From Haliotis asinina (Eukaryota > Mollusca > Gastropoda > Lepetellida > Haliotidae): a stretch of 64,000 nt of DNA. The translations under genes were made by a program, and so were the position numbers. Of this stretch, positions 730 to 62,546 are shown piece by piece. The notes below the pieces were generated by a model, which had not been told where the DNA came from, did not search any database, and worked only from the letters and a program-made list of their open reading frames with translations. The stretch is from contig NC_090280.1 of NCBI RefSeq assembly GCF_037392515.1, positions 61,455,504-61,519,503 of the forward strand, given 5' to 3'. Positions within the stretch are counted from its first letter, which is position 1; the number at the start of each line of letters is the position of its first letter.

Positions 730-3478
730 GGTGCCAGCTATGCTATTGGTAATGCTGCCTACCATAGTGGGGAACTGTACACCAAGTTGAAGTCTGCCAT
801 TCCTCATTTGGTCCGACTACTTCGAGACCCTCTCACCAAGACCAAGACTAATGCTGCCAGTAAGTAGATCAGATCAGCACTATGCCATCATACTCACACC
901 ATGGATACTTCAGTCGTAATACCCTGTAAGGCAGTGAGGTAGCCCAGTGGTTAAAGTGTCCTCTCATCACACCAAAGACCTTGGTTTGATTCCCCTCATG
1001 GGTACAGTGTGTGAAGCGCATTTCTGATGTGCCCCGCCATGATATTGCTGGAATATTTCTGAAAGTGGCCTAGAACTAAACTCTCTCAGTTATAATATGC
1101 TACCCATCAAATGTTTAGTCTGACTTAAAACACCCAGTATGTGTTATGTATATACATATGGTTACATCGTTAATGAATTACTCCACTAATCTGGGGAAAA
1201 CAACTGCAAACTTTATGCAGGTGAATTGCTCAAGGTGTTTTGGTGTCAAGTTTTGGTAAGAATTTGCCAATTTTCACCGATTTTTGTTATTTCCTGAACT
1301 CATGACAATAATCTTTTCAGCGTTATGATTTTGCTTTACATCAGTTCATGAGTAAACAGAACCTTTAAACAGGATGGAGTATTTTGCAAAATATAGTTTA
1401 GAACAGTTGACTGAAGTAAGTGGCTTCACTTACACTAGTGAGCATGGTGAACAGAACTGCGGATGGGGAGTATATACCCTGTGAATAGTGACACTTAGTT
1501 TCAAATGAATCCCTTTAAAGTGAGTGAGTGAGTTTAGTTTTACGCCACACTCAGCAATATTTCAGCTATATGGTGGTGGTCTGGACCTGACAATCCATTG
1601 ATCAACAGCATGAGCATCAATCTGCACAACTGGGAACCGATGACATGTCAACCAAGTCAGCGAGTCTGACCACCCGATCCTGTTAGTCACCTCTTACGAC
1701 AAGCATAGTTGCCAGTGTATGAGATTGGTTATTCAAGAAAGGATATGTTTCTTTGTTGTTTAACAAGTAAATAATGAAGTACGGCCCTGATGATCCAGTG
1801 ATCAACATCATTAACATCAACCAAAATTTTTGATACAATGACGTGTGTCAACCAAGTCAGCATGGTTGACCACCAGATCATGTTAATTGTCTTGTACGAT
1901 ATGCATAGGTCCTAGCGTGATGGCTCAAGTATTCACTTCTGGGTTCAATTCCAAACATGGTATCAATATGCAAGCACATTGCTGGTGTCCCTCACTGTGA
2001 TGTTACTGGAATATTGCTAAAAGCGGCATAAAACGATGCTCATAGTCAACAGGTCCCTGTAAGCTGGCAATTCTTGGACAAGAAGTTATGTTTTCAAATA
2101 CTGACATTCAACTGTTTCAGGTGCCTGTGGAAACCTTGGGATGCACTCCCCTGTACTGGTACCAGATATTAAACAACACAAGGTCATAGAACAGTAAGTT
2201 ATACTCTCGAACCTGTCAGTTCAAATTATGGAGTAAGGGATCATTCGTAAGTTTTCGCCTGGGGGATGATTATGATTTTTTTTAATGAAGAAGCATGTAC
2301 AAGGATCCCCCCTAAAATTTATGTACAAAGAAAGTGACCCCCTGCATGTCATGTACAAAACCATTATCCCCAGGCATCCTTCCCTTAATTTTTTAATATT
2401 TCTGTTTACAAATTGCTGACAACTCCCACCATCACCCTACCTCAGTACGTGATCAAAACTGCTGACCTCTCTACCTCCTTGGAACAAACCACCTAGTCAT
2501 AAATTACTAATGGATCATCTTTCATGCCACTCTTTCAACACAGTGATGATATAAAGTAATACAGCTAACATACATCCCAGCGTAGACCACCTCCGTACCG
2601 GAGTGGATGGTGAGTGAAAGGTCACTGGTTCTAGCCCCTGAAACCATTTGACCAAATAGTCAAAAGCTCAGCATTTTAGGATAAAGCAAGGACTGGTTGG
2701 CTTGGAATCTGTTGACCATGTCTAAAGTGGAGTATCCATGCTCAACATGCTACTGTGATATGAAATACCTTTACATCTATTACCAAAGTTGACACTGGTT
2801 CTCCTTCAGTCTCATCGATGTGGCATGCTCAGACAATCATCCCAATGTCCAGACCAATACTCTTCTAGCACTACGCAGTCTGGCACAGCAGGAACTTCTC
2901 AGGAAGGTAAGATCAGATGGTTAATATTTTACTTTACAAATTTCACAATACTATGTATAACAAGGTTGAACAGATATGATACGGAGGGAGGTAGCCCCTG
3001 CTCCTGTTAGGAGACAGCCTCAAGTGTTTAGAGTTACCTCCCTTATATTTTCATTATAATGGATAGAATTGCTGCTGTTGAAGTTTTTGATAAATTTCAG
3101 ACTTATTGCATTATTTCAAATAATTTATCTTTTTTGATGGCGGCAGTAATTTTTAAAAAATTAATGTCTGGTTAGCTGTAGAAAGAATGTTTTTTGACAT
3201 TTCAGTTTTATCAGGGTTTTGGGATTAGTAAATTGTATTCACAGTGATCTCTGTCCTCAACCACATATTGTCGTCTTTTGCAGGAAATGGTGTCCTTGAA
3301 CGCTGTCAGCAAGCTGTGTGACCTGACCACAGCCAGCACCCCTCGTCCCGCCTCTGCCCTGTCCCGACCCACCTCCCAAATGTCCGGGCGGGGTAGCAGC
3401 CTCAGCATGCAGGGTGGGGGAGACTACAACATCTCCTCCCAGTGTAACAAACTTATACGTCTACTACAAGGGAGCTAG
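730..3478 (+). CDS. STK36: STK36 (Fused) serine/threonine kinase, C-terminal part, 5' end outside the window
   Basis: Four final coding exons: 730-859, 2121-2193, 2810-2906 and 3284-3478 (stop TAG 3476-3478), 495 bases, 164 residues. All junctions have AG/GT signals and the frame is kept. The residues match the C-terminal ARM/HEAT-like helices of vertebrate STK36 as I remember them: SYAIGNAAYHSGELY corresponds to FAVGNAAYQAG, NAASACGNLG to VASALGNLG, and NTLLALRSLAQQE to ALIALRSLQQE. The end CNKLIRLLQGS resembles the CRKLIHLL end of the human protein. Between these lies a Ser/Pro-rich linker (TPRPASALSRPTSQM). STK36 acts in Hedgehog signalling and in motile-cilium central-pair assembly. The kinase domain and most of the protein lie to the left of the window. 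Three kinase-only relatives follow within 60 kb. Confidence 0.92.
930..1092 (+). repeat. tRNA-headed SINE (family 2)
   Basis: Box A-like TAGCCCAGTGGTTAAAG and box B-like GGTTTGATTCC, then the family body (TGATATTGCTGGAATATTT) and the ACTAAACTCTCTCAG tail. It lies in an STK36 intron and is moderately diverged. Confidence 0.8.
1093..1520. other. STK36 intron without recognisable features
   Basis: AT-rich sequence between two SINEs. I see no exon, promoter motif or repeat in it. Confidence 0.5.
1521..1717 (-). repeat. SINE family 1, nearly full
   Basis: Starts with GTGAGTGAGTGAGTTTAG (the reverse of the CTCA tail), then ACGCCACACTCAGCAATATT, ATTGATCAACAGCATGAGC and GACCACCCGATCCTGTTAG. True orientation is taken from the CTCA-type 3' tail, so the copy is on the minus strand. 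Confidence 0.85.
1776..1907 (-). repeat. SINE family 1, diverged partial copy
   Basis: GATCCAGTGATCAACATCAT, CAACCAAGTCAGC and GACCACCAGATCATGTTAA match the family-1 body. Both ends are missing. Confidence 0.7.
1908..2050 (+). repeat. SINE family 2, diverged copy
   Basis: Box B-like GGGTTCAATTCC and the tail ACTGGAATATTGCTAAAAGC GGCATAAAAC. The head is decayed. Confidence 0.7.
2194..2809 (+). other. STK36 intron, no recognised element
   Basis: Intron between the exons ending at 2193 and starting at 2810. It contains a T-rich stretch near 2275 and a faint tRNA-like word (GGTTCTAGCCCCTG, 2628-2641), which I do not call as a gene. Confidence 0.5.
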
Positions 3479-7219: not shown

Positions 7220-10200
7220 ATGTCCACAGAAGACGATTACATTAAGCTTGAGAAGTTAGGGGAGGGGGCCTTCGGGGAGGTTTTCAAGGGAAGGAAAAAA
7301 TACACATCTGAGGTAGGAGCTGTATATACAGTAAACTGATGAACTTAAACAGCATTACAGCAAATTGAATTAAGCAAGTGTATTTACTAAACCATCTTCA
7401 GTTGTCTGTAGATGAGGATTTGTTTAATATGTTCCACGTCTTCACCAGTAATAGTGTTTACAAAGCCGGTAACATTTTCCATTACAGATATCAGCTATGA
7501 AATACATGTCGAAATTCCGCAAGACAAAGAAGGAGCTTGATGGCCTGAGGAATGAGATCACCATCATGCAGGGACTCACACATCCACACATCATACAGCT
7601 CCTTGACAGCTTCGAGACCAAGGACGATGTGAGTATACCTTTGTGTGAACACTAGGGCTGCAATGTTTTGCTTCAGTTCATCAAAATTGGAATCTGACAC
7701 CTTAGTTTCATTTTTTGATAACTGTTATCACTGTTTTGATGAGATATTTGAATACCTACCTAACTCATTGTCACTCAGCCAGAACATAACCTGAGCAGTT
7801 TCAGGTGTTGAAATAAGGAGAAATGTGATTGGTAGATGCCTGCTCAAAAAGCTGACTCAGAGGTTAAATGAAATCTGATGTTTTGACTTGTGTGAAAAAT
7901 CTAGTAAAAAATCATCGAATCGAGGGTCCAATATAAAAAGTGTAAATGAATCGAGGTCTGGGTGAATGGTTGCAGCCCTGGTGAACATGGCGAATATGTA
8001 AACAGTTACATTTTCAGGGTCTCAGCCTTTTGGAAAATACACTTTTGAAGCTTCAAGCAATACCAGATAATGATATTTTCTCAGCCTAAGGCCATAAGCT
8101 TTACAAGAAAGCTAAAATGTAAAGAAGAGATCACAACCAGTCAAATAAAAATATGAATATATTTCCTATAAATAAAGTTTAAATCCTAGCCATTATGTGT
8201 CAGTAGCGTGAGTGTAAATGCACCTATAGTAACTGTCCAAGTTATTATATAAATGAAGTACACAATAAAAATTCTAAGGTAGTATTATGGCCAGATTTGG
8301 ACCAGAGTACCCAATGTAGGCAGCTTTGCAGTAGGAATTTTTGTCAGAATAGGAGTTATCCCCCTTATTGTGGGTAAGAACATGGGAGGATGGTTCTTTT
8401 GCAAAAAATCTGAAAAGGACAGTTACAAGGCAGCTGGTGATCTGTCTCACAGTCCCAGAAATACAGTATTTTCCCCAATGTTTTGCCCTCTTTGCAGTTG
8501 CAAAAGCCCTAAAAGAAGCAAGTCTAAATTTCTTCAGGTTCAATCGCTGGGGCTCCTTTTTAATTTAAATGGGTTTATTTGTTATTATCAAAATTATATG
8601 TATATTCACTGACAAAGCATTAGTCTGGAAGGATGCGTAGGCAAATCTATGGTCTTCTCTGACCTAACTTGATTCTTATCTACATACAAATTGTGTATAA
8701 GTCATATAATGACATGGATGTCAGCTTCATCCTTATTGTAAACACGTTTCTGGGCTTTTCCTTGCCCCTTTGTCGGGAAAATCATCCATTATATTTTGTT
8801 TTATACTTGAATACCATCTTCTGTATGTCACTCAAGAGCGTACTAATTGTGTATTGAATACCCATTTGGATATCTCATCAAATTGAAAAGAAGAAAACAG
8901 TTCCTCTGATATCTGAAAAGTTATGTTCCCGAGAAACTATATGTGTGGCAGAAGTCATGGAGTCACAATTCCTAGCAGATGTTTTGTTTTAGCAGTTTCA
9001 AAATATTTTGAATAATATAAAAAAAATCAGGAATACATGACTAGTCTAACATAGCAACGTTTGTTGTGACCATGTGTTTGTGTTCCAGATAGTGGTTGTG
9101 ATCGAACTGGCTACAGGGGAGCTGTTCAGTGTGCTCATCGATGAAGGAGGGTTTGCTGAAGACAAGGTGTGTATCTCTCAATCAGTGAAATTGTTCAAAG
9201 AAATATTCCAATATTGATACTAAAAGTTAAACCTATCGATCGCTACCAGGTTCGAGACATCTCATGTCAGATGTCATCAGCCCTGTACTACCTCCATGCT
9301 CACCGAGTCCTGCACCGCGACTTGAAGCCAGAGAATGTCCTCATTGGTAAAGGCGGGGTCATCAAGCTGTGCGACTTCGGCTTTGCCAGGGCCATGGGGA
9401 GGGATTCCTACTATGCAAAGACAATCAAGGTATGTCACAAGTTATTTGTGTCAAAAATGGTATAGCAAATGGTAGTAAGCGCATACATTTCTTTTTCACA
9501 ATTTTACAGTGATTCCCAAAAGTAGAGGAATTGTTTATCATAGATTGTTGTATTTTAGATTTTAATACAAATATTCAAGATGTGTTTTAAGTTACTTATG
9601 TCTCATTTCTATATTGCTAACAACAAAATAGTTAAAGTTTCTCATTTAACACTATACTTGTATCTGTTCAGTGAAATATACTTCTCTTTACAAATAAGTT
9701 ATATGTATTTAAATGTTGTGAAATCACTGCATTGTTTGGTCCAGACTTGATTATTTACAGACCACAGTCACATAGCTGAAAACTTGCCGAACTGTTAAAC
9801 AACATGCACGCAAAATGTTTCGGAGTTCGCAGACTGGTAATAACATATCTGATATTTGAAGTTACCTGTTCATTTCCGTCTTCATCCCCATCAGGGAACC
9901 CCTCTGTACATGGCCCCCGAGTTGATGGACGAGACATCATATACAGAGAAGGTAGATTTGTGGTAAGAAGTGTATATAAACATAACGCTTGTCGTAATTT
10001 CACTGTTGTAGGAATATTTAGTCAATGTCTGACTTTCTTCGTGCCTTAGCTCTGAGCAGGGATGAAAATAATTCTTGAATTGCTAATGTACCCTGGTACA
10101 GTGGCACTTGTAAACTCACTTGCCCTGAGAATTTATCCACAATACTAGCTGATTTTCTTGTTGATTGTTTAAATAAACAACATAATTAACAATGGAAAGT

Positions 10201-12193
10201 CAACTGGACAGCAGTACAGCATGATATACAAATTAGCTTGCCCAACAGAAAAAAGCACTAGACTGGGGCGTCGGGCAATGGGTTATTTCCACCCATGTCT
10301 GAGGGTAATCATGTGTGACCTAATGTGACTCATCAGTGCCTAAACAGTGATATAAGCTACGTACTCTCAGCAATACCCTTAGAGGCCCAGTGTGTGAGTA
10401 TGGTGATCCTAAGTGAGCTGACCCATGAAGGTCCTGGGTAGAAGAGGCCTTCAGCAACCCATGCTTGTCATAAAAGGCAACTATGCCTGTCATAAGAGGC
10501 AACTGACAGGATCGGGTGGTCAGGCTTGCTGAGTTGGTTGACACATGTCATCGGTTCCCAATTGCACTGATCGAAGTTCATGCTGTTGATCACTGGATTG
10601 TCTGTTCCAGACTCGATTATTTACAGACCGCTACCATATAGTTGGATTATTTCTGAGTACGGCGCAAAAAAACAAAAATAAACCCACTCACTCACTCCCT
10701 AAGCGAGCTACTTGTGGTACACAGAAACAATGTGTAACCTGTTTGTGGTGGAACTCAGACATGTTGCTAATATATATTTTATAACCCTCCCTTTGTTTAA
10801 AAGAACTGTTCAATATTTTATTCTCATCATCAAACAAACATATAAATGTATGAAGCACGATTTGTTTAGAGTTGCGTTTTAGGGATCTTATAGTTCCTTA
10901 CATTTTGCTCTTGTGTTTTCTCTGGAATCTTTTCTTTGTATTATATCACAGAATCTCAGACAATATTCAGCACTAATGAATTGTAAGGAGATGTCATAAA
11001 GATCATACATGTGATTTCTCAGGGCTCTCGGGTGCATCATGTATGAGCTGTTTGTGGGGAGGCCACCATTCTGTTCCATGAGTCCCTATGTCCTGCACAA
11101 GATGATCGTGGAAGAGCCTGTTACTTGGCCTAATGACTTTCCCAGTGAGCTGAAAGACCTTCTGCAAGAGCTGCTCATCAAGAACCCCCGGGAGAGGTCC
11201 TCGTGGCCGGACATCCTCAAACACAGCTGGTTCAGAGGAGGCATCAAAGGTAACAGCAGTCCAGGGTCCCATTTCAGAAAGCTGTCATAGTAGTACGATT
11301 ATCGTAAGTCCATGTTTCAGTATAAAATGTACGATGGTCTTAGCGCTACGATAGCTTTGTGAAACAGGGCCCGGAAAACATCCCCATCCCTCTTCATCAC
11401 ATCTTTACCATAAATGGGTATCCAAAACTAGTAAAAGTGAAAAGAAACCCTCCGCCCTGCTTCTTGATGATGCTGTGCTGAGATGAGATTCTACTGGACA
11501 ACCAGTTGCCTGTTTTGTGAATCCATCAACTCCCTATGTCTGTTAGCTATGATTCCTGATCTACCTTCCAGTGTCGGAAGAGGACTTAGCGCTTGATAGC
11601 CCCTACACCAAACCTGAGATTGCCGCCCAGAAACAGAAAGAATACAACGAAAAGGTAACAACATTTACTAAGCAAAATTTGTTCAGTTGTCCAGTTCGTG
11701 TGCTATGGTGCAGCAGATTTGTAAGCAGAGTTGCTTCCCTTACCTCTTCAGGATCTACTGATGGTCCCTTTCAATGATTTGTCTTGGTTTTTAGTCTCCT
11801 GTTGCTGTGTAACTCCTAGCCTACAATCAGTCACACTTTCAGTAAGATACTGGCTTGCAGCAAAGGCATTCAGGACTGGAGGTCTGTGTGTGACCCATGT
11901 GTATCTCTGACAGAATATTCCAGTAGGTATAGGATATTAAACAAGCATTGTTCCACGTGGATGGAGTCATATTGTTCTATGATTGAAATAATATTATACA
12001 TGACGTTAAATCCTATGTTGCTCACCACCAGAAATTCACACAGACTGTTTCTGTTGAAGATACAGGAGAGGTTGTTATTTCATTGTAGGTTCTAGCTCTA
12101 GGATGTGGTCGTGGCTTGACATCAGATGTGACAGATGGCATCCGATTGGACACAGTTGTGTTGTATGACATTGAGGAAGAACCCGAGATGTAG
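7220..12193 (+). CDS. Fused/STK36-like short serine/threonine kinase A (324 aa)
   Basis: Coding exons 7220-7312, 7488-7628, 9089-9166, 9250-9429, 9895-9962, 11023-11249, 11572-11654 and 12089-12193, all with AG/GT borders and a continuous frame. The ATG at 7220 sits 20 bases after an acceptor, at the same place as in kinases B and C. Residues 7-285 are a complete kinase domain: glycine loop GEGAFGEVF (14-22), Lys36 (AMKY), alpha-C Glu54, HRDLKPEN (126-133), DFGFAR (146-151) and APE (171-173). [14 protein letters not shown] and CDFGFARAM are the STK36 signature as I recall it. Residues 290-314, encoded by exon 7 ([15 protein letters not shown]), also have an STK36 counterpart. The protein stops after a short acidic end (YDIEEEPEM), whereas STK36 runs over 1,000 residues. 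Likely an active cytosolic protein kinase; its substrate is unknown. Its last exon has been amplified into a 75-bp minisatellite. Confidence 0.93.
7629..9088 (+). other. Kinase A intron 2, no recognised element
   Basis: About 1.45 kb between exons 2 and 3. It is AT-rich and contains only short open frames on both strands (for example 8274-8543 minus and 8368-8612 plus) that resemble no family. I see no repeat of the two SINE families here. Confidence 0.5.
9738..9783 (+). repeat. SINE family 1, small 3' fragment
   Basis: GGTCCAGACTTGATTATTTA followed by CAGACCACAGTCACATAGCTG. Only this 3' third survives, about 110 bases before kinase A exon 5. Confidence 0.65.
9963..10409 (+). other. Kinase A intron 5, first part
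   Basis: Spacer between exon 5 and the SINE at 10410. No exon or repeat was recognised. Confidence 0.45.
10410..10700 (+). repeat. SINE family 1, full length in tail orientation
   Basis: Runs from GACCCATGAAGGTCCTGG, through CAGCAACCCATGCTTGTC, GGATCGGGTGGTCAGGC and GATCACTGGATTGTCTG, to CCCACTCACTCACTC. A short internal duplication (two CTATGCCTGTCATAAGAGGC-like words near 10450-10500) resembles one in the copy at 34534. Confidence 0.88.
11262..11373. mobile_element. Hairpin MITE, GGGCCC-type termini
   Basis: CAGGGTCCCATTTCAGAAAG at the left and CTTTGTGAAACAGGGCCCGG at the right are inverted repeats, and TACGATTATCG/CGCTACGATAG pair further in. It begins 12 bases after the kinase A exon 6 donor. 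The same terminal type occurs at 24846 and 48063. Confidence 0.7.
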
Positions 12194-13023
12194 ACATTGC
12201 CATTTCTGAAGGACATCAGACAGAACATAGTTGTACTGTATGATATCAAGGAGGAGCCCGAGATGTAGACATCACCATTTCTGAAGGACATCAGACAGAA
12301 CATAGTAGTGCTGTATGACATTGAGGAAGAACCCAAGAAGTAGACATCGCCATTTCTGAAGGACATCAGACAGAACATAGTAGTGCTGTATGATATCAAG
12401 GAGGAGCCCAAATGTAGACATCACCATTTCTGAAAGACATCAGACAGAACATAGTAGTGCTGTATGATATCAAGGAGGAGCCTGAGATGTAGACATCACC
12501 ATTTCTGAAAGACATCAGACAGAACATAGTAGTGCTGTATGATATCAAGGAGGAGCCTGAGATGTAGACATCACCATTTCCAAAGGAGATCAGACAGAAC
12601 ATAGTAGTGCTGTATGATATCAAGGAGGAGCCCAAGATGTAGACATCACCATTTCCAAAGGAGATCAGACAGAACATAGTAGTGCTGTATGATATCAAGG
12701 AGGAGCCCAAGATGTAGACATTACCATTTCCAAAGGAGATCAGACAGAACATAGTAGTGCTGTATGATATCAAGGAGGAGCCTGAGATGTAGACATCACC
12801 ATTTCTGAAAGACATCAGACAGAACATAGTAGTGCTGTATGATATCAAGGAGGAGCCCAAGATGTAGACATTACCATTTCCAAAGGAGATCAGACAGAAC
12901 ATATTAGTGCTGTATGATATCAAGGAGGAGCCCAAGATGTAGACATCACCATTTCTGAAGGACATCAGACAGAACATAGTAGTGCTGTATGATATCAAGG
13001 AGGAGCCTGAGATGTAGACATCG
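12150..13023 (+). repeat. 75-bp minisatellite, about 12 units, derived from the kinase A terminal exon
   Basis: The first unit overlaps the last codons and the stop of kinase A ([12 protein letters not shown]-stop, ending 12193). The following units repeat that coding end, the TAG and about 36 bases of 3' flank every 75 bases. Units 1 and 3 share the GACATTGAGGAAGAACC variant, and the others read GATATCAAGGAGGAGCC. Because 75 is a multiple of three, the sense frame keeps one stop per unit while one antisense frame stays open over two long blocks. A 2-base change near 12410 separates these blocks. The antisense frames are low-complexity shadows. Confidence 0.95.
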
Positions 13024-14367
13024 CCAGTTTGAAAGGAATCTTACATTAAGGAAAACCATATTTCATGTTGAAACCCATCAGAAGCATTTTTGAGAATCCG
13101 CTGGATGATCTGAAATACCACACTCTTCAGGGAACTGTGATCAAACATGAGTACATGCAGTGGCAACTGATCGATAGTTTGTGATGCTTTTGTCATCAGG
13201 CCTGTGCTCCTGTGAAAGAAAGTTATATTTCAAGCTCTTGGAGACTGACATCTGAATCACTTGATCCTTTCTCTGATCCACTTTGGATTAACTTCACTCA
13301 TACTCATCATTTTCATCAATGAATATTTACCACAGTGAATTTGTGTGATCATCATAAGAAGAAAATATCATGCACTATATTCCAGCATTCCTGTGTATTC
13401 ATGAATTGTTTCAATTTGATTCCATCAGATCTGCCACACAGTGACTCAGGAATTTACATATACATTGAACTTGTCACGTGATCTTGAATGAGATGTGTAA
13501 GGGAGCTAGAGTGAGTGAGTGAGTTAGTGAGTGATGAGTTTGAAAATATCTCACTTGACCTTTGAGTTAATGGTTTTACACAACATTTTGCAGTATTCCA
13601 GAATTTTATCACAGCTGGGACCCTAGAAATGGGTTTCACAAACAGGTCGGATTAAAGAGATTTGACTGTATAAGACTGTTAGGAAACAAAGAAATTACTT
13701 TTCTTTTTTGTTGGTTTTGCACAATGTTAACCCACCGCCCCCAAATCTAAAATGGGTAAAAGAAGGTACATAAAAAAACCTCTACAGAATGTCAGCAATG
13801 GTCAGCCGTTATGACATTACATATCCCGAGAATATAAAGTTATTTGCCATCTATTTTAAAACTAAGATGTGTGCTTTTTAAAATTTAGGCTGAACTAATT
13901 GGGAAGACCAATCCATATTTAGAGAAGGTTCAGCTGGTAACTGTTTTAAGGATGTCATAATAATTTGTGTTTACAATTTAAGGAAATATTGTTACAGATA
14001 TTATGACACTGCATTTTAAATCAAAATAACTATTCCTGTTGTGCTTATACAAGACTATTAAATTTAGGTTTCACTTGTTCAAAGTGACAGTCATGTGACT
14101 ATATAACAGTCATTTCTGATTTTCACTTTTCAAAAGAAGGTAACCTTTATGAGGAAACAAAATGTATGTTTTCCAAAAGCACATCTGTTGCAAGTGAAAT
14201 ATAATTTCCATTATGGCTTTGTTTTTAAACTAAAAGTACTAATCCAAATTATGATAGCATGTTTTTTCTGAAAGATTTCCTATGTGCCAACCTATATTTT
14301 TGCAAAATATACTGGGTGGCGTTTAACTTTTCATTCATGGTATAGTTACTCCAAAGCTCTTATCTTT
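13024..14367 (+). other. Kinase A 3' flank
   Basis: Probable 3' UTR or spacer. It contains a degenerate family-2 SINE on the minus strand around 13500-13640 (GTGAGTGAGTGAGTTAG, then GCAGTATTCCAG and GGGTTTCACA). No coding signal otherwise. Confidence 0.45.
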
Positions 14368-14562
14368 ATGTAGACAAAATATCTATCTGTACATATCCAG
14401 GGATGTCGTAGGAGTCGAGCAGCTTGATGATGTTTGGGTGGTTCACCTTCTTCATGATGAGGATCTCATTCCTCACATCATTCATCTCCTCTTGGTCCTG
14501 AAGGAGGAGATGTACTTGAGATCGCAGATCTGTAGCACAGTTTGCCCGTGAAGATCGCAGAT
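14368..14562 (-). pseudogene. Inverted genomic copy of kinase C exon 2 with flanking intron
   Basis: On the minus strand, 14529-14393 matches kinase C exon 2 (55533-55670) almost base for base: [26 protein letters not shown]. About 25 bases of the following intron (14392-14368) and the acceptor CTACAG also match, so this is a DNA-level duplicate and not a retrocopy. It is 137 bases long instead of 138: one A of AAGAAGGAG is missing, which shifts the frame after the SFRT codons, and Ala of CALKY is Asp. A 33-base tandem duplication (about 14518-14584) repeats the acceptor and the exon start. No other kinase exon lies beside it. Confidence 0.9.
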
Positions 14563-17529: not shown

Positions 17530-19200
17530 CATTCAGAAGTTGGAGTAGTATGGAAGGATGACAATATATGGATAAACAACTTCTTTATTGCTATGAGACC
17601 GACCTTTCGATGTAGGTTCTAACACCGTTATCAAGTAAGTGATGAACAGTGTGAGGAAGGGGAGCATATACACAGGTAGTGGATATGTTTGTACAGCTTG
17701 ATTGGGGTAGGAAGCCAGACACCGTAACAACTCATGGGCTTTGATATGGTGGTGTCAAACGAAGCCTGCAAACACTAATGGGGTAGTGAAGCCTGTGGCA
17801 TACATAAGCGGTGTTGTCAGTAATGAGCATCTTAATGAGTTGATAATGTGCAGGAGGTTTGTAATAACCTTGGTCACGGTTGACTGATGGCTGGAGTCTT
17901 TTGATGTGGATGGCTTCTTGGAGTTTCCTAAGCTTGAGGTCCTTGAGGTTGGTTGCTAGGGTTTGGGTTCTGTTCTAACTCTGTTCTGTACTGGATACTG
18001 TGGTCGAGATTGTCTTTGATGTGGTCTGATACGGCTGATTTTGAGTCAAGTTTAGATACTGAGGTTTGGAGGTCTTTGATCCGGGTTTTGAGGGGTCTTG
18101 ATCGATGTTTCTCCTACGTAGGTTTGTCCACAATCGCATGGGACATGGTGATTGTTATTTCTGGTTGGTAGGTGGTTTGTCACTTGCTTTGATGGTGTTC
18201 AGGATGGTATTGTTGTTCCATTTGAAGACGGCATCTACTTTGGGCCGTGTTTTTAGGAGTCTCTGGACTTTGTGGCTGACACTTCTGCAATATGGGAGGC
18301 TGATGACAAAGGGTGCAGTCTGTTGACGGGTGGTTCCCTCTGTTTTGTTGCCGACGTTCTGTATACATGTAGTTTGTTGCACAAGCTGTCCAGGGTAGGT
18401 TTTGTACTGTATGGAGACTTCTTTTAGGTGTTGGAGTTCGGTGGTGAGGTGTTGCTTGGTGGAACAGATATTGTGGACTCGTTGTACTAGGGTGGAGATG
18501 ATTCCTTACCTGACTTGGGGTGGATGGTTGGAAGCTAGGTGAAGGTGCTGGTCTGTGTGGTTTGGTTTCCGGTATACTGTAGTGGTTAGTTTGTTGCTAG
18601 TATCCTTCAGAACCAGTACATCGAGGAAGGACCATTAATGGTTGGACTTTTCTTCCATGGGGAACTGGATACGTGGGTTTTGGGAGTTGATGTGGTCTAG
18701 TAGAGCTTTGTGGTCACTGTCAGGCTTAAGGAAGACAAAGGTATTATCCACTTTTCGGAACCAGCAGAAGGATGTTATGGGGGATGTTTCCAGGGCTTTT
18801 TCTTCCAGGTGGGCCAAGAAGATCTCAGTGATTATGGGCGATAGTGGGGAACACAGGTGAAACCAGTTGAAGTATGTGGAGCTGATACAGGAGTGTATCA
18901 GTTGGATGATAGGATGATACTGTCGGTTGTTAGACGGGTTTCTAGGGATGGGTGGATTTCATCTATGCGGTTTCTGATGATTTCGATGGCTTCGTCACCT
19001 GGCACGTTAGTGAATAGGTCCACGACGTCATAGCTGATTAATTTTCCAGTTTGGCTGATGTCACGGATTTTCTTACATCCCCCATAACACCCCTCTGCTG
19101 GTTCCGAAAAGTGGAGGATACCTTTGTCATCATTAAGCCTGACAGTGACCGCATAGCAATAAAGAAGTTTATCCATATACTGTCATCCTTCCCTATGTTC
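17530..19200 (-). mobile_element. Broken Penelope-like retroelement with inverted end
   Basis: The minus strand carries, in order, reverse-transcriptase pieces (KLISYDVVDLFTNVP near 19000; CWFRKVDNTFVFLKP near 18740), a GIY-YIG-type nuclease piece (VPCDCGQTYVGET near 18130) and the tail word EAIHIKRLQPSVNRDQG near 17890. These are typical of Penelope-like elements. The same terminal sequence (GCAATAAAGAAGTT and ATCC words) appears at both ends in opposite orientation, 17541-17590 and about 19152-19190. A short plus-strand RT piece lies at 19060-19150, so this is a head-to-head composite. It is interrupted in several places and looks dead. Age seems moderate. Confidence 0.82.
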
Positions 19201-45117: not shown

Positions 45118-48100
45118 GGGAGCCAGTCGAAGACAATCACACATTGTCGCAGCAAACGGCAATATTCCGCGGGAGTGTATGAGAGATAGTGATCGAGAGA
45201 GAGAGAGTGATCGATCGAGAGAGAGTGATCGAGAGAGAGATAGAGAGTGATCGAGAGAGAGGGTGATCTAGAGAGAGAGAAAGTGATCGAGAGAGAGAGT
45301 GATCGAGAGAGATAGAGAGTGATCGAGAGAGAAAGAGATCGAGAGTGATCGAGAGAGATATAGAGTGATCGAGAGAGAGGGTGATTGAGAGAGAGAGAGA
45401 GAGAGAGAAAGTGACCGAGAGAGAGTGATCAAGAGAGAGGGTGATCGAGAGATAGAGTGATCGAGAGACTGATCGAGAGAGAGTGATCGAGAGAGAGGGT
45501 GATCGAGAGATAGAGTGATCGAGAGACTGATCGAGAGAGAGTGATCGAGAGAGTGATCGAGAGTGATCGAGAGAGAGTGACAGAGAGAGTGATTGAGAGA
45601 GAGAGAAAGAGAAAGAGAGAGGTGGGGGGTTGGGGAAAGAGTGCATGTCTGTCTGCATGGACGATTGTCTGCATGCTTCTATCCCACTGGGACACACTGC
45701 CTCATGAACAAGCCTCTCAGTAACAGCACACTGAGTCTGAATCTACCAGTTCATGTCACGTCTATGATGACGAGTGCCTGGCATCTGCAAATGTCTCAGA
45801 TATGACATGACCAGGGTTCGAATGGCCGCTACGGAGAAACGCCGCATGCAGTGGCGAGCAAACGGGGAACTATTATTTGCCGGTCACACTTATCAGTTCT
45901 GTCGCTAATAAGTTTGACCGTATTGGCCCAGAAAGCTTGCGGTTTGGATGATTACTGTTCAAACGTCTATGTGATTAAACTAACATTTTTTTATAAATCG
46001 AAAACTTGGAAAACCAAACGATCCTATGGCAAAGGTGACGTCGTGTTTCGTAAGTATTTACTGTCAGAACTCTTTTTGCATTAAGCGATCATTGAAAGCA
46101 TTTCCCTATTCTAAAGACGCCGTAGATTTAATGATGAAAATTATCAGTCGAGTGCTCGATCAATCAAACTTCGTGGTATGTATACAATAATACCTCTTTA
46201 ACTAAAGACCCATTATTTCATCCTCAGTGAGACCATGTTACGCTGGAATATTATCTTCAACTTTGTTGTTTCATTGTATTCCTGAGGTCTTATCTGCAAC
46301 TTTGTTGTTTCAGAGTATTCCTGAGGTCTTATCTGCAACTTTGTTGTTTCATTGTATTCCTGAGGTCTTATCTGCAACTTTGTTGTTTCATTGTATTCCT
46401 GAGGTCTTATCTGCAACTTTGTTGTTTCAGAGTATTCCTGAGGTCTTATCTGCAACTTTGTTGTTTCATTGTATTCCTGAGGTCTTATCTGCAACTTTGT
46501 TGTTTCATTGTATTCCTGAGGTCTTATCTGCAACTTTGTTGTTTCATTGTATTCCTGAGGTCTTATCTGCAACTTTGTTGTTTCAGAGTATTCCTGAGGT
46601 CTTATCTGCAACTTTGTTGTTTCATTGTATTCCTGAGGTCTTATCTGCAACTTTGTTGTTTCAGAGTATTCCTGAGGTCTTATCTGCAACTTTGTTGTTT
46701 CAGAGTATTCCTGAGGTCTTATCTGCAACTTTGTTGTTTCAGAGTATTCCTGAGGTCTTGGAGGGAACAGATGTAACTACTCGTACCTTGTCTTCCTTGA
46801 ATTTCCCCTTAGGCTCTGCCCTCATAGCCTTGAACAATTCCTTGACAGCATATTCGAACACAAGCACGATCTGTAAATATACATGGAACAATATTATACA
46901 CAAGACACTACAGACTGACGCTTGACGGAACATACAGTATGTTTCAGTATACCAACTTTCGGCCTTGATAGTCCAGGAGACTGAATATGGCAAAGGCTTA
47001 AGGATGCTGGAGCAGTGGAACCCGTTAGTTCTGAACCTACATGCTTGTCAGTCTCGAAGTTGTCCAGCATCTGTACAATGTGCGGGTGTTCAAGTTTCTT
47101 GAGGAGGTGAATCTCGTTGCGAGCATCCTTGATGTGTTTCTCTGTAACATTCTTGGGGATGTACTTGAGCGCGCACACCTGGAACACCAGTTTTAGACTT
47201 GAAATTCACAATATGAGAAGGAAAACCTGAAATAATAAGTGAAGTTGAGTTCACTGTTTCAACAGCGCGTCTAAAAGGATTTTACGGACGCAGATGACCT
47301 TGAATACACACACGAACACACACCGAGACTCTCTCAGCCCGCATTATTTTCCCCTTTTCCAATTTGCATTGGGTTATTTGCTACAATCAAAGTTGTATAT
47401 AATCAAAAACTATAAGCGTTAGTCTAAGTGAGCTCGCAAAGACATTACATCCCTATATTATAAGGAATGTATCTTCACCAGCTAATCAGTGGCATGTCGA
47501 GGAAAGAGTGCCTGTCGGGGTCTGCTAACCCAAAACTTGGATTAAAAAGAGTCTGTTTGTTGTTATAAGTTTGTTTTATGATTTTCAAAAGAGTGCCGCA
47601 TTTCCCCCCAAAATATATCCCACACCTAGAGAATAAATTAGATCTTTACATTAGATGCCCATTTCACTCCATCAACACCTGTGAATTTTAATAACATATT
47701 ACATGCTAACTTTCCATATCTATTTCCTTGCAGACATACGATTCGTATCCTGAGTTTAATTATTAAATAACATCGATGTCAAACTTCAGCATGGTATTTC
47801 AGTGAGTCAGCACATTAGTACAGGTCTCAGGTCTAAGAACGAGGACGTGAACGAGCAAGCACGTCGCCATACTAGTGCAATGAAAGAATTCTGTGAATTA
47901 GTTCACAGATTGCAAATTCCAGCTTTATCACGACGGCCTGTAGATACTCAAGTCTGGACCAGACAGATGTTTTAACGAGGCAGGATCCACGTCATGGAAA
48001 AACTACGTCGTCCTTGACCTCAGATGCCCCCGCGTCATTTACGGCGGCGGGAATATGACCGACCAGGGGCCCGTTTCACAAAACTCTCGTAAGCCTAAGG

Positions 48101-52480: not shown

Positions 52481-52486
52481 TATATA

Positions 52487-54508: not shown

Positions 54509-57500
54509 ATGCAGGATGACCGGTACGAGACACTGGAGCAGATTGGCAGTGGCGCCTATGGTGATGTGTACAAGGGCAGAAAGAAAGGCGGATCAGGGGA
54601 GGTAATAACTAGTAAAAGGTGTAGTGGAGTCGACTTAATGAGTATGGTTTAACACCATTTTTTGCAATGTTCCAGCAATATCACGGCGGTTAAGACCACA
54701 ACTGTGCTTCGCACATTGTATACCCATGTGGGGAATCGAAAACGGGTTTTCATTGTGACGAATCAATCGTTTGACCACTAGGCTAACTCAGCCCCTATAC
54801 TAGCCAAGTGAGATATCAATACTGATGTACTTCATGGATACCAACTTCTTTATATCGTGAATGCAACGTTTCGATACAGATTCTTGTACCGTTGCCAAGC
54901 TGTACCGCTATCCCTGTTTGAGAACGTTTGTCTATATTACGCGAGTCAAAGAAGTTAACTGGAAAACCGTCCGCAGTTTAATATTGAATACTGTAAGGGA
55001 CATTCTCGCGATCTCGACCTTTGGAAACATGCTAAAAATGCCAAAAGCGCGAGAATGCGAGGTCGCGAAAATGTCCCTTACAGTATTCCATAGTTGCTTC
55101 ACAGACACAATATACTTTCTTCCCACAGTCCAGTCATTCCACTAACGGCGATCGCCAGGCAGGGTCACTTTAAGTGACATTATTACCTGTTTCTGTATCG
55201 AACGATATCGATCCACCTACTTCCTGGCCACGCGCTTTATACACAAAGGCGGATTGTAAACAAGAAACAGTTTTGTTTGCTTACTTCATGTTTGATGCAC
55301 CTCTCAGCAATATTCCAGCTACATGAACACAGTCTGTAAATAATCGAGTCTGGACCAGGCAATCCAGTGATTAACATCATGAACGTAGATCTCTGTGGGT
55401 CGAATAATGTGTCAACGATGTCAGTGAACCTAACCATCCGATCCCGTTAATCGCCTCTTACGACAAGCATAGGCCACTGAAGGTCAGTTCTATACCTGAT
55501 CGATCTTCACGGGCAAACTGTATGTGTTACAGATCTGCGCTCTCAAGTACATCTCCTCCTTCAGGACCAAGAAGGAGATGAATGATGTGAGGAATGAGAT
55601 CCTCATCATGAAGAAGGTGAACCACCCAAACATCATCAAGCTGCTCGACTCCTACGACATCCCTGGATATGTACGTATAGATATTTTGTCCACATATACT
55701 CGCCAGGTTTTCTCTAAATGAAATTTGTGATCTTCACAAATGGACAGTAATCTGAAATACATGTTTGCCAATACATGTCATTTGTCAACAAATCCACCCC
55801 ATGCTCTCCGCAAATGAACGCAATGTTGTCGATAAAAATTAGTTGTTCACATGCTGTCATGCTGTCCACAAGTACACATACAGGTATTCCGAAAAAAATA
55901 TATATATACATTAAATGACAACATGCAAGTATAATATACTTTCACAGCATACTGCTCTTTATGGTGGTAATTCTACGTGAGATATTTTATTGCCACTTTT
56001 AATGTTTTATCACTTATAACCATGAGGGTCACCTTGAGGAGCACCAGAGGTAATGCTCTATAGGATAAGTGAAGGGTAGTGGGGATGCACCCAAAGTATT
56101 ACACGTGTGTGGTCATGACAAAGCAGAGATCGAATTCGAACCAGCGACCATACGGTCCAATCTAGGGTGCTAGGTTTGTACATAGTAGCACCCTTCAGTC
56201 GTGTCAAGGTATTAGGATTCGAACCCAAAGCTTCTCCCGATCTTTGTCAGTAGCCCGCCTGTGCTTGTAGGTGGTAGACAAGGCTCTACTTTACATGGGG
56301 CTTTAATTACAAATCAAGCTGACTGGCTGAGCTGTAACCTTAATGCCGTTCAAAGGGGCGTTTTGACTGAATCATTCTCTGTAAATTTATTACATCAAGG
56401 CCAAATGTAGATGTAGGACCAAAACCAGCTATTGAGATGCATCCGACCTTATCAAAACCACTGCATGTCTTGACGAAGCTGTGCATCAGTCCTGTCACCC
56501 TCCACCACACAACTGGAGTTAAGAATTATGCATTTAGTCTGTAGACACGTGGACTGTGCGGATGAAGTAGTGTTGTAAACCCCGTTTGTTTTTAAATTGA
56601 TACTTGCTGTAGTCAGTTCCATATCAACAAGATATTTTGAAAGGTGTCATACGAACCTCTGGATGACACTTTTACTGCTGCTGATTGATCTAAACGATGG
56701 AGACTTTTATAGCATTTGGCCTAGGATTTCGTTGTAACCACAACACAGTCATCATGCTCGAGTTCCAGTATGCGAAATGGCCACTGACCCACTTGCCCAT
56801 GGCTAGTGAACATCCAACTGGTAAATCTCCACAGTCATTGGCCAGAGTGGTGAATTTTGGGGCTGGTGACTGGTAGGATCAATTTGTAAATACATCACTC
56901 GTTAAGTTACAGTGCACCTTTAAATCGTGCAAGATTACGGCCTGACAAAACATTTCATCTAACATAGTTTTGAAACTATTTCGCACACTCCTGTTCAACA
57001 CACCTATGCGTCCATCTCTTGATTACATGTCTGTTTGTTTTCAGCTTGTGGTGGTCACAGAGTGTGCTTCTAAAGAGTTATACAAAACGCTCATCGCAGT
57101 TGGGTGCTTTCCAGAAAACAGGGTACAGTATATTTGTGAAAATTACAATTTAATGTTTTCATAAAAATATTATCGGAAACTCAGTACATGGACTCAGTAC
57201 AATTCATAGAATTACCAGACATGTTAATAAAAAAAAACCTGTTTATAAAATTGATATGTAATTCCCAAACATTTCAGTCAGACAAATAGACTGGTAACTT
57301 TGCAATGTTACTAGACCAGACATGAATTCACGAACTCACGAACTCAAGACTTTGGGATAAACGTATGAAAAATGGTAAACGTAAAAATTAGCAATGTTTG
57401 GTGTCTGTTATCAGGAAATAACAAAAAGCTGGTGGAATGTCAGCATAGTATGTTTAACATACGAAAACTGAAACATTTATTATTCACACTGTTTAAATTC

Positions 57501-60500
57501 AAACCTGGACATCAAGTGGGTCATCTCGAGCATAGGGATTATTTACAATGAGAAGAGAAAGGTTAGATCAACATAAACAGAAGGCATAATAATTGTTTAA
57601 CATGATTTACAGTCAGTTTACCAATTTCTTTGAGAGGCATGTTAGGAGTTGTAAAGGTGAAGGGAAAACAGGTTCGGTGGATAGTCAACTTGTTCATTGC
57701 AATGAGGTCGACGTTTCGGGGTAGGTTCTAACACGTATCATGTATGTACCTGCACCGAAACGTCAGACTCCTTGCAATAGAGAAACTGACTATCCATGCA
57801 GCTTGGTTAACCTTTTGTTTACCTAACACACTGAATAAAGAAACTGAGGACATACAGTTGGTTTAGGCAGGGAACCTCTAACGGGTTATCCCTGGTTTAG
57901 GGAATGCAATCATACAGTTCAACCGCCAGCAAAATCAACTGTCGGGAAGGGGGTACTGAGACACTCCGATACGATACGATGAGTGTGAAGATCTTCGTAG
58001 AAACTCGTGACTAACTCGTATTTTTCCGGGACAAGCCAAACAACATCTTAGATGTTACGGAAAGGATCGAGTGGTGACGAATGCTCCGTGGGATGCAGTT
58101 TAATCAGTCAATCAGTGTCCAGGATTATAAAGGTCCGACAAGACTGACATGTACATATATGTGGCGTCTGAATGGAGTCTTTCGTCACTTTTGGAGTGCC
58201 GCGGTACTTTAAACAAGGGAGGTAACTTTTGACAGCACATGGTTTCGAGTCACTCCAAATGTCATGCATTTTAGGGAAACTTCAAACAATGTGAAGACAT
58301 CAACTGAAGACATTAAGATGATGTGTGAGTGAGTGTATTTTTGCGCCGCACCCACTAATATTCCAGTTATAAGGAGGCGGTCTGTGAATAAAGGTGCAGG
58401 GTACTGCAGGCTGACCACCCTTGTGTCGTTGATGCAGCGCGTGACAGTCTGATCAGGACTCAACCTTAGGGTTAAATTGAGAATGTTTTGTGTTAGTCAG
58501 GACTTGACCCCGAGACACCCACTAGTGCCACCTAGTCACTGCTGTAATAAAGGGTTATGGATCCTCTGATGGATTCCTGTATTTGAAGAAACAGTTATCC
58601 CTGTAAACAGCGCAGGATACAGACCATCTGATTATCTTCTTCTCCATCTCCAGGTGCATGAGATTGCCTGTCAGCTGTCCTCGGCCGTCTTCTACCTCCA
58701 CGCCAACAGAATCCTCCACCGAGATCTCAAACCCGAGAACGTTCTCCTCATGGGCGACGGCACCGTCAAACTGTGCGACTTCGGCTTCGCGAGGGCCATG
58801 GGGGAGACTTACTATGCCACTACTATAAAGGTGAGTGGCAAACAATCATCCAGTCATTGTGAAATGGGAAGTGACACATGAAGATCCGGGTTAGAATCTT
58901 CGATTCCCCGCATGAGTGAAGACTATTGCTGGAAGCGGGGTAAAACTAAACTCACTCATGATTAGAAACATTATGGTAAACCTGTTTCCTTATTGCAGAG
59001 AACTCCGGTATACATGGCGCCAGAAATAGCAACGGACACATTCGTCTCCTACACAGAAAAAGTGGATATATGGTAAGACAGAATATTTTGTGATTATAAT
59101 ATCGATGGGTTATAAGTTGGCTACATCGACTGCCATTATTAATTCACGTCTTAGGGAAAATATTGAAACACTGACCACGACGTGGGACTCATTTCACACT
59201 TGCCCTGTGTTAAAAATGAATTATGCATTCCACAGGTTTCAAGATCCAAGGATAGAATCCCGAAATCACCACAAAAAGAATCATTTTGGTTTATATACTA
59301 AACAGCAAAAGAAACGCAACTGTGTCAAGTTTCTAAATAGTAGAAATAAACATGAACGTTTCTTTTGCTGTTTAGTTCGTGTTTCTTCTGTTTAGAAACT
59401 TGACAACAACAAAACAAAGTTGCGTTTCTTTTGTTGTCAGTATATGAATGCAGTCATGGCTGGTAGCTATTGCAAAGCCATTTTTCAGTTGAGGGGTTAT
59501 CCGACTAATTTTTAGCATATATCTAGAAATGTTTTAACTGTTGTCTTAGTCAAAGACCTTCCTATATAAGGGTAGGAGTTACTGGTTAGATTAATAGATT
59601 GTGCCCGCAGCAAGACAAGTCTGTTCTTTGGGCGACTATATGGATCCAGTGGTCAGGTTTAGTGACAGCTAGGGTTGATTGCATTTGACTACCACGACTT
59701 TTGCCACTGCCAGTAACAGTAATCAGTAGATTGTGATGTCAGCACATTATATACAGGCGTATAACCGAAACAGCCAAATGAATCTGGAATGGCGTTACGT
59801 GAGGATAAGCCAGCCATTGTCCAATATCAAAATGTTCAAGGAACTATAGTAAACAGCCGAGTTGTTTATTGTTGCCTTAGAAACAAACAATGATTGTATT
59901 TCCAGGTTTAGGTCAGGAGACATCTCAATACAAAAAGTTATTCAATAAGTTCTTTTCCACTTATCTAATCTTAATAATTTTTTTTCATATTGCAGGGCTT
60001 TAGGTTGTATAATATACGAGTTGTTGGTGGGCGACCCACCCTTCTTCTCCAACAGTATCGTCACTCTGGGGATGAAGATCCTCAACTCCTCAGTCCCCTG
60101 GACCAACAACATGCCCCCAGATCTCAAGGACCTCCTGCAGATGATGCTCACCAAGAATCCCAGAGAGAGATGTTCATGGCCAACCATTTTGTCCCATCCC
60201 TGGATCAAGGGCGGAATTATGGGTAAGTAGGTTTTTGAAGCATCCGAGTTAAAAACATATTATAACATATTTTTTGTTATATATTGCATAAAAAAATCCA
60301 GTCAGATTACTGAGTTCTTCACAGTATCAGCAAGGACGACTATCCACCAATCCCCGCAGTGACCATTTGACTGTGCTTGGGTTTTACGTCTCTCTTAGAA
60401 ACGTTGCTGACCTGATCAAGTGAATACTAATGCAGTTTGTGACCCTGTCACAACTGGCTAGGTCTATTAATGTGAAGGGGTGCATCTTTGTCAGTCGATT

Positions 60501-62546
60501 GTCAACATGTCAACAGCCGAGACAAGGTTGACGTTTGACATCTCAGAGTCGAGAAATTGTCAGCAATGTTCTAACTTCCTTTGAAAAACAAAGCTACAGA
60601 TGGTGTAATGTTCCGATGTGTGCATGTTTCGTACTATCGCAACAATAATAACATCATCTGCTCCCCTATTTTTTGTGAAATTAACTCGACCTGCCGAATC
60701 TGCCATTTGACCTCCCTGGTCATGCATATGTAGAGTGGCCCAGGTCAAGCTGAACACCCTGTACTCACTGACCTGGCTTGATACTTACCCATTTAGGGGA
60801 TAAACGCCATACCTTTTTCCTAACGAGCAAACGCTTACCCAAATCGTCAGTCTATTTACCTTCTAAATGGAATGCATGTATAATGTCGACAAGTTATAAT
60901 CTTATTAGCAAGTCTTTGACCCAAGCTGATTTTCTTAAGGCAAGTTGATAGAAACAGTACATGACACAAGTATGAGTGAAAGTATTCAAAGGCCACTGAT
61001 TTGTTATCTAAATCTTTAGATTAGATTTCTTTTCTAGAAGCTAATGCTGTAAGTCAATACAAGCAAAAGTATCAACTGTCCAAACTTGTTTCTTATGAGT
61101 CTCTCAGTCCCATTCATAACTATCCCATTCATAACTATCCCTTATACATCTCATTCCCTTTGTATGTTAGATAGCCCTGACTCAGCATACCCATGTTAAA
61201 TAGCCCAGACTCAGTTTACACACAGTGAGAAGAGAGAAATATGTGTTATTTACGTATCGCATTGCTGTACGTATAATGAAAAAAACCAATATACATTAAC
61301 AATACAGTAAACTGTTATGTTCACCACAGATTTAGTAAGGGCGGTGGTTCAGCTAGTGGTTAGTGACTCGTCACGCCGAGGACACGGGTTCGAATCCCCA
61401 CATGTTCACAATGTGTGAAGCCCATGTTTGGTGTCCCCCGCCCTGATATTGCTGGAATATTGCTAAAAGTGGCGTAAAACTGAACTCGACCACTCATAAA
61501 CGTTGTTTACTGTATCATATATACACAAGTTTTTATACTACAACAAGTAAACATGATAGCGTTGTGACTTTCGATAAAAGTAGTAATTTTATGCAATGAT
61601 ATGTTGCTAGTATCTCCCGAGGATAGGGCTCGAGACAGCCCCTACACCAAACCTGAGGTTGCCCAGAAGAAGGTGGAGGAATACCGGGAGAAGGTATGGC
61701 GTTTGTGGTTTTCATACTTCGTCTGTCGACCATAATTTTGTCTAAATGATGAATATAGTTACACTTATCTGTAGCTTGCTTTAAAGCCTTTCTTTCTGAA
61801 TCCTAATGGATACTGTAAGATCTTCCTCACAATACTTAACAAAAACGGTAAGGACCACTCGTGTCAGCTGGTTCCCATGGCAGCATCTGCAGTTGCTCAT
61901 TTGTGACGTCATTCTAACTTTACGTCACAATATGATTTGAATGACGTCACCACTGTTGATGACACAACAAAACAGTTGTTTGCGATGTTTCTACGTGTCA
62001 ATACGCAGCCAGAAGCCAACATGAACAAATACCATTTAATCATGTTTTTCAACCAATCAGATCACAGAACACAGTGACTTTTGGTTTGCAATTAGGAAAT
62101 TAAACATCACGTGTTGGCCAATTTCCAGGTGTTACTGAGTATTTGAAGCACGGGAATATTTCATTTGAAACCTCCGGCTGACGCCATCGGTTCCAAATGT
62201 ATGAGAAGTTATATTATTAGGTAATTATTGGTAGGGATTATTCATGTATGTTTATATAACATCTTTAATATCTTTAAACTATGCATTGATGTAGTTATGA
62301 ACTAAATGTTCATGTGCATTCTTGAATGCATGAATGTAAGGAATTCTCAAATGAGTGTATTTGTATCGTTGTTAGGTACGTATACTTGGACGTGGTGGAA
62401 AGCTGTCAGAGAGTGAAGACGTTCCCGATGGAGCCGAAGACGTCACTGATGGAGATGAAGACATGGATGTCGTCATCATGATTCCTCCACAGAGGAGAGG
62501 AGGTTCTTCAGAGTCACCTGCTGACCCATCAGAAGCTGACCAATAG
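54509..62546 (+). CDS. Fused/STK36-like short serine/threonine kinase C (346 aa)
   Basis: Coding exons 54509-54601, 55533-55670, 57045-57122, 58654-58830, 58999-59072, 59996-60222, 61611-61693 and 62376-62546 (stop TAG 62544-62546), AG/GT throughout. Exon lengths equal those of A or B within two to three codons. The start at 54509 corresponds to those of A and B; the exon opens at 54494 and is in frame upstream, so a longer N-terminus from an unseen exon cannot be excluded. Kinase domain residues 6-285: GSGAYGDVY (13-21), Lys36, alpha-C Glu53, HRDLKPEN (125-132), DFGFAR (145-150) and APE (169-171). The usual Gly of the GTP-YMAPE segment is Arg (RTPVYMAPE), at the splice junction of exon 5. 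Exon 7 ([15 protein letters not shown]) is conserved. The tail has 56 residues and is acidic ([19 protein letters not shown]). Probably an active Fused-family kinase; role unknown. Exon 2 has a broken inverted copy at 14393-14529. Confidence 0.93.
54625..54800 (-). repeat. SINE family 2, diverged
   Basis: TCCAGCAATATCACGGCGGT, GTGGGGAATCGAAAACGGG and TTTGACCACTAGGCTAACTC, in kinase C intron 1. Confidence 0.78.
54835..54910 (-). mobile_element. Penelope-type element end fragment with hammerhead-like core
   Basis: On the minus strand, TTGGCAACGGTACAAGAATC then TGTATCGAAACGTTGC. The layout (box, GGTAC/GTATC stem, GAAAC) is that of the ends at 17590 and 37885. Box 1 deviates from CUGANGA. Confidence 0.5.
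54986..55088. mobile_element. Hairpin element, GAATACTGTAAGGGACATT ends
   Basis: GAATACTGTAAGGGACATTC with TCGCGATCTCG on the left pairs with CGAGGTCGCGAAAATGTCCC with TTACAGTATTC on the right, about 31 bases per arm. In kinase C intron 1. Confidence 0.85.
55285..55520 (-). repeat. SINE family 1 abutting kinase C exon 2
   Basis: CTCAGCAATATTCCAGCTAC, GACCAGGCAATCCAGTGATT and GCCTCTTACGACAAGCATAG, ending GATCTTCACGGGC only 13-20 bases before the exon 2 acceptor, so its 5' end forms part of the acceptor region. Confidence 0.85.
55671..57044 (+). other. Kinase C intron 2
   Basis: About 1.4 kb. Two tRNA-like box B words on the minus strand (GGTTCGAATTCGATC near 56130; GGGTTCGAATCC near 56215) hint at a third, decayed tRNA-derived repeat at about 56080-56290. 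The rest is unassigned. Confidence 0.45.
57123..58653 (+). other. Kinase C intron 3
   Basis: Contains a Penelope-type terminal palindrome at about 57690-57800: TAGGTTCTAACACG and ACCTGCACCGAAACGTCAG, with GACGTTTCGG/CCGAAACGTC arms. It also contains a family-1 SINE end at 58322-58400 (minus; GTGAGTGAGTGTATTTTTGC). No exon recognised otherwise. Confidence 0.55.
58870..58965 (+). repeat. Small composite SINE fragment
   Basis: ACATGAAGATCCGGGTTAGA (family-1 head), CGATTCCCCGCATGAGTGAA (family-2 box B area) and the common tail GGGGTAAAACTAAACTCACT are joined in under 100 bases, in the 168-base intron 4 of kinase C. Confidence 0.65.
59298..59440. mobile_element. Foldback element with AACAGCAAAAGAAACGCAAC ends
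   Basis: AACAGCAAAAGAAACGCAAC with GTGTCAAGTTTCTAAATAG is mirrored by CTGTTTAGAAACTTGACA and AAGTTGCGTTTCTTTTGTTG. An extra inner copy of the terminus (CGTTTCTTTTGCTGTTTAG) sits in the middle. Related to 3978-4068. Confidence 0.78.
59441..59995 (+). other. Kinase C intron 5, unannotated part
   Basis: No exon or repeat recognised. A T-rich acceptor tract lies at 59979-59988. Confidence 0.5.
60223..61337 (+). other. Kinase C intron 6, unannotated part
   Basis: A short duplication (CCCATTCATAACTATC twice) at 61108-61140. Otherwise nothing recognised. Confidence 0.45.
61338..61497 (+). repeat. SINE family 2
   Basis: GGGCGGTGGTTCAGCTAGTG, GACACGGGTTCGAATCCCC, TGATATTGCTGGAATATTGC and GGCGTAAAACTGAACTCGAC. 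Confidence 0.87.
61694..62375 (+). other. Kinase C intron 7
   Basis: Several GACGTCA/TGACGTCA-like words at 61905-61950 (CRE-like by sequence only). No exon or repeat recognised. Confidence 0.4.

Follow-up and report, generated by a model that had tools for sequence, protein, structure and literature searches.

Four kinase-only STK36-family genes beside STK36 in Haliotis asinina

To our knowledge, most animals carry only one STK36, a protein that normally combines a kinase half with a scaffold half. A locus of Haliotis asinina in which several kinase genes of STK36 type stand beside STK36 itself raises the question of what the kinase half does when it is encoded alone, a natural experiment that four kinase-only genes would provide. 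We analyzed a window of 64,000 nucleotides (positions 61455504-61519503 of NC_090280.1, here contig C1) together with added flanks of 100 kb per side, and additionally searched the whole genome (1.14 Gb, 159 contigs). Coordinates follow window numbering, with negative values lying left of the window.

Exon-by-exon tblastn with gene A as query revealed one kinase exon set that is present five times in the region, in STK36 and in the genes here called A, B, C and D (Table 1). A preliminary description of this DNA had proposed three kinase genes of 324, 460 and 346 aa within 60 kb of the 3' end of a full-size STK36. These lengths are exact, with the joined exons of each gene ending in a stop, and the distance is right as well, with STK36 stopping at 3478 and C finishing at 62546; the count of three is correct for the window, but the locus holds four such genes, with D lying to the right (flank pieces L011:3412-8959 and L012:291-443, equal to window numbers 67412-74443). 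Between A and B we also found an exon of an UNC-93-like transporter gene, to which a nearby open frame may belong, and a stretch of overlapping broken frames that look like retroelement remains.

Table 1. Features of the STK36 locus, in window numbering unless a flank piece is named; tblastn starts are those of the shared kinase exon set.
Feature	Coordinates	Strand	tblastn start	Basis or remark
STK36, kinase exons	-44583 to -38844	+	-44580	
STK36, last four exons	730-859, 2121-2193, 2810-2906, 3284-3478 (stop)	+		open joined frame, AG/GT borders
Gene A, 324 aa	7220-7312, 7488-7628, 9089-9166, 9250-9429, 9895-9962, 11023-11249, 11572-11654, 12089-12193	+	7220	splice model, translation
Gene B, 460 aa	48778-48686, 47178-47041, 46870-46787, 44084-43908, 43663-43587, 41165-40945, 39608-39526, 37806-37297	-	47178 downwards	splice model, translation
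Gene C, 346 aa	54509-54601, 55533-55670, 57045-57122, 58654-58830, 58999-59072, 59996-60222, 61611-61693, 62376-62546	+	54509	splice model, translation
Gene D, 358 aa	67412-67537, 69159-69293, 69402-69479, 69806-69988, 70637-70710, 72202-72449, 72880-72959, 74291-74443	+	67451	splice model, translation
Minisatellite at end of A	12150-13033			75 bp, 11.8 copies
Dead copy of C exon 2	14367-14557	-		antisense, with splice borders; 1-base deletion
Retroelement-like broken frames	18155-19182	-		three frames tested, no Pfam match
Open frame near UNC-93-like exon	22557-22886			no Pfam match
UNC-93-like transporter exon	25292-26233	-		Pfam UNC-93
Tandem array in B intron	41449-42936			62 bp x 24.0
Tandem array in B intron	46251-46759			39 bp x 13.1
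Repeated start of D exon 4	L011:5570-5830			by eye

The neighboring STK36 is indeed full-size, as had been claimed: its start at -44583 lies 44.6 kb left of the window, its kinase exons are followed by later exons in order as far as the stop, and the part inside the window has Arm and HEAT matches in Pfam. The first seven exons code for 313 aa in our splice model. Human STK36 is colinear with the local gene from -44583 to 2909, and the two kinase domains share 79.6% identity over 255 residues.

Genes A–D follow the plan of the STK36 kinase exons closely. Six intron positions, with phases 0,0,0,0,2,1, are common to all five genes, and GT...AG borders are found at 7/7 introns in each of A, B and C; D ends in a stop like the others and has two weak donor sites (gttgag and gtctgt). 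The stretch after the kinase domain still aligns, reading SPYTKPE in A, B and C, SAFTRPG in D and SPFTQPL in STK36, and is followed in A–D by an extra phase-0 intron ahead of a final exon not shared by STK36. Searches with the C-terminal exons of STK36 (for the middle of the gene, a distant query, human STK36) gave no match in the window and its 100-kb flanks other than the STK36 gene itself, with no Arm/HEAT part of A–D detected. Because the large C-terminal armadillo/HEAT region is not found beyond them, A–D are STK36-family kinases and not full STK36 proteins.

The last exon codes for 34 (A), 169 (B), 56 (C) and 50 (D) residues, and the resulting tails are acidic in A–C (Asp/Glu vs. Lys/Arg: 8 to 2 in A, 51 to 20 in B, 15 to 5 in C), whereas that of D is nearly balanced (7 to 6). 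Only the tails of C and D are clearly alike (0/2000 shuffles, compared with p = 0.02-0.30 for the other five pairs), so the case for a common origin of this exon comes chiefly from where it sits and from its phase. Derivation of the tail exon from the STK36 linker (EVDSEDEW motif, -34242) was not supported, with local alignment scores no better than those of shuffled tails (p = 0.21-0.55 across the four genes). A SUMO-interacting motif, an idea taken from a paper on Fu/Ulk3 condensates (PMC11721587), was also set aside: the tail of A has no match to the pattern, and although those of B, C and D do, so do 17-68% of their shuffled versions. Separately, a minisatellite starts within the last coding exon of A, and its units resemble the last codons of the gene including the stop, from which the array grew; long tandem arrays are also held in introns of B.

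Turning to catalysis, script patterns and alignment place the G-loop, beta3 Lys, alphaC Glu, HRD, DFG, YMAPE and C-lobe Arg in all four of A–D, although for two of these in B (the alphaC Glu and the C-lobe Arg) the narrow script patterns failed and the alignment was used; ULK4-type loss of catalytic motifs is absent from A–D. The STK36-type and catalytic motifs that the preliminary description had ascribed to A–C are present, with small exceptions, namely KELY instead of KELF in C and stretches reading [12 protein letters not shown] and [11 protein letters not shown]. At the APE motif the local STK36 has YMSPE vs. YMAPE in A–D; for mammalian STK36, where Ser replaces the usual Ala of APE, the authors of a study on CdaH suggest that the protein may be a weak kinase (PMC10565251).

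The activation loop is less uniform. Hedgehog drives phosphorylation of Fu at T151, T154, T158 and S159, sites described as conserved in STK36 (PMC10721220). Our alignment shows Ser or Thr at all four of these places in the local STK36, at two in A, one in B and three in C, while in D only the last two of the four can be aligned confidently, and each is Thr. All of A–D have Thr at the last place, T158 is replaced by Lys in A and by Arg in B, and YYA sits upstream of the sites in A, B and C. These Hedgehog-linked sites appear partly changed, most in B, and at least some of A–D are probably switched on differently, a claim that is weaker for C and A because they keep Ser/Thr at 3/4 and 2/4 of the places.

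Our preferred reading of the cluster, which we put forward tentatively, is that A–D are four coding STK36 paralogues acting as free, active STK36-type kinases, possibly with ULK4 and with partly other activation. Each protein would begin with a kinase domain of STK36 type, continue through the adjoining SPYTKPE region and finish in a short tail encoded by the added last exon, and would work as an active serine/threonine kinase in the manner of a free STK36-type catalytic domain. Even without the scaffold half that STK36 carries, these kinases could associate with ULK4 and act on STK36-type phosphorylation sites, with cilia or sperm axonemes the likeliest setting. We propose the ULK4 partnership because STK36 aa 1-260, the kinase domain alone, is reported to suffice for Ulk4 binding (PMC10721220), and because the genome has an ULK4 match (C10:35458526-35459286, with 66 and 70% identity over two exons vs. 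human ULK4). The four genes offer a testable partner (ULK4) and testable tissues (ciliated epithelium, testis).

The same binding by the isolated kinase domain would also suit proteins that mainly compete with or dampen STK36, either by occupying ULK4 or by pairing with the STK36 kinase domain, and that bring no Arm/HEAT scaffold to the complex; Fu is described as being activated through kinase-domain dimerization (PMC10721220), and the scaffold part is what A–D are without. We nevertheless consider this role unlikely, since four old genes that have all preserved their catalytic residues suggest selection on catalysis, which a pure competitor would not need.

How did such free kinases arise? 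The simplest answer is a partial duplication of STK36. The preliminary description had envisaged a partial tandem duplication producing a kinase-only family, of which the STK36 membership and the lack of a detectable C-terminal half have stood, but B is inverted and the copies are old. We envisage an ancestral gene with only the 5' part of STK36 that would have been duplicated locally several times, with C and D the last to form and later gene conversion between them. Three trees pair C with D as nearest relatives (86/96, 98/98 and 100/98), and their exon 4 (58654-58830; L011:5806-5988) shows 81% identity (144/176) vs. 56-64% in six other exons compared, a pS of 0.40 vs. 0.76-0.77 in exons 1-3 and 5-6, and 50 identical bases in a row, a likeness that fits gene conversion as its likely cause. 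The start of D exon 4, with its acceptor, also seems to be tandemly repeated several times just upstream. Additionally, the interval between A and B contains a dead duplicate of C exon 2 in antisense orientation, with 186/196 aligned positions identical to 55501-55696 and 5 gapped; it abuts the end of a SINE-like repeat.

To date the group, we built trees that drew on human and Drosophila sequences. A–D fall outside human plus local STK36 in 4/6 tree settings, and not in the other 2/6. The three STK36/Fu orthologues (local, human and Drosophila) exclude A–D at 99/99, and a grouping of local STK36 with A–D was rejected when Drosophila was left out (p-AU = 0.003), but not when it was included (p = 0.11). 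Four further settings were split: two keep A–D (or A and C) outside, where forcing them together with local STK36 gave p = 0.145 and 0.193, and in the other two A or A–D group with local STK36 at weak support (43/31 and 38/66). Alignment columns point both ways, with 9 in which A–D hold an outgroup-like state, vs. 11 common to local STK36 and at least three of A–D against human, some of which are also outgroup-like. Because the six settings disagree on whether A–D arose within molluscs or earlier, we set aside dating A–D by tree. The exclusion at 99/99, the rejection in the absence of Drosophila and the 9 outgroup-like columns would suit survivors of a kinase-only STK36/Fused sister line that predates the mollusc/insect/vertebrate split and is still linked to STK36, in which case the ancestral Fused locus already held scaffold-free active kinases that were lost where STK36 stands alone. 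Such ancestry appears improbable to us, as the rejection is lost with Drosophila, A or A–D join local STK36 in two of the four further settings, the 11 columns link local STK36 to the cluster, and A–D adjoin STK36.

Partial duplication, the simplest origin, would in any case have been old. Across exons 1-6 of the five genes, pS (0.67-0.81) exceeds pN (0.26-0.41) in all ten pairs, and with synonymous sites near saturation we reject a recent duplication. When neutral change of the STK36 exons was simulated at 30, 50 and 70% change per site, the copies acquired a mean of 7.3, 10.0 and 12.0 stops, and 0/1000 runs at each level remained stop-free. Four intact frames at such divergence imply old genes, in use now or for long, and A–D are, as judged from these substitution patterns, old genes under protein-level constraint. 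A dead fragment close by (the antisense copy of C exon 2) and the two weak donor sites of D might hint that A–D are themselves decaying or untranscribed copies; given that the four frames are open and their splice borders intact, that pN is well under pS for each pair and that no copy among 3000 simulated stayed stop-free, we reject pseudogenes and judge decay very unlikely.

The cluster also appears to be confined to this locus. Genome-wide searches with A, C and STK36 as queries, with the best candidates scored, yielded no second locus with a matching exon set at comparable identity. Among these best-scored candidates, identity reached at most 60% over ~45-50 residues around the HRD-DFG core, and long matches (at least 150 residues) stood at roughly 25-38%; some unrelated multi-exon kinases matched in two pieces. 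The genome also contains tandem arrays of single-exon kinases at C5:13406869-13423781 (7 frames, 265-279 aa) and at C10:35563362-35605462 (6 frames, 381-413 aa), as well as a separate ULK3 match on C3.

Family placement was examined in kinase-domain trees. Identity to the local STK36 is 56.5% for A, 51.5% for C, 44.4% for B and 40.1% for D, compared with 36.7% for human ULK3. A wide tree of 17 kinases, which included 7 of 20 single-exon kinases from the same genome, put STK36 and A–D on one side of a branch (63/99, i.e., 63% bootstrap), and a narrower tree of 13 rows, with the longest branches removed and human STK36 added, united them in a clade at 100/99; 12 short stretches were compared by tblastn only and are in none of the trees. 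Forcing a grouping with ULK3, done for B and D, was rejected for both (p-AU = 0.002 and 0.0001, respectively), and the kinase L021, which from its motifs we take to be TSSK-like, groups with MARK4 at 96/97. An NCBIfam search returned prokaryotic kinase models only, and no chain named STK36 was among the best 60 PDB matches listed for A, STK36, the five-gene profile or C. Membership of A–D in another kinase family (ULK3, TSSK or other) is scarcely credible: the long-branched tree supports the cluster with a bootstrap of only 63%, and PDB searches rank CDPK2, AKT or Aurora kinases above ULK3, for A and STK36 alike, but the 100/99 clade, the two ULK3 rejections, the position of L021 and the introns in common with STK36 all argue against it. 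None of A–C, nor D, was placed with another kinase family, in keeping with the preliminary assignment, and on sequence grounds A–D are STK36/Fused family kinases that form one clade with STK36.

Among the open-access papers listed by our literature searches, no title concerned kinase-only STK36 paralogues. Mammals are reported to have one Fused orthologue, and Fu/Stk36 has been reported in two annelids (PMC9695228). Motile cilia are described as needing STK36 for their central pair, and the kinase as having a role in Hedgehog signaling (PMC10958382, PMC10721220); a review connects ULK4 as well as STK36 with motile cilia and this pair (PMC10958382). Four long-kept kinase-only genes beside a full STK36 are unusual for a cilium kinase that is usually described as single, and they are a variation on a known kinase.

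Compared with STK36/Fused (such as Drosophila Fu and Tetrahymena CdaH), A–D are alike in the kinase domain (40-57% identity to the local STK36), in the six introns and in the SPFT/SPYT stretch after the kinase domain, and differ in that no Arm/HEAT scaffold was found in them, in their extra tail exon, in having YMAPE where the local STK36 has YMSPE, and in the partly changed Ser/Thr places of the activation loop. ULK4, a relative and partner of STK36 (PMC10958382), is described as a pseudokinase with Arm repeats (PMC10721220), whereas in A–D the catalytic motifs are retained and no repeats are seen. Finally, ULK3, a Fu/Ulk-family kinase reported to act on Gli2 in parallel with Stk36 (PMC11721587), shares 31-38% identity with A–D, and a grouping of B or D with it is rejected by the tree tests.
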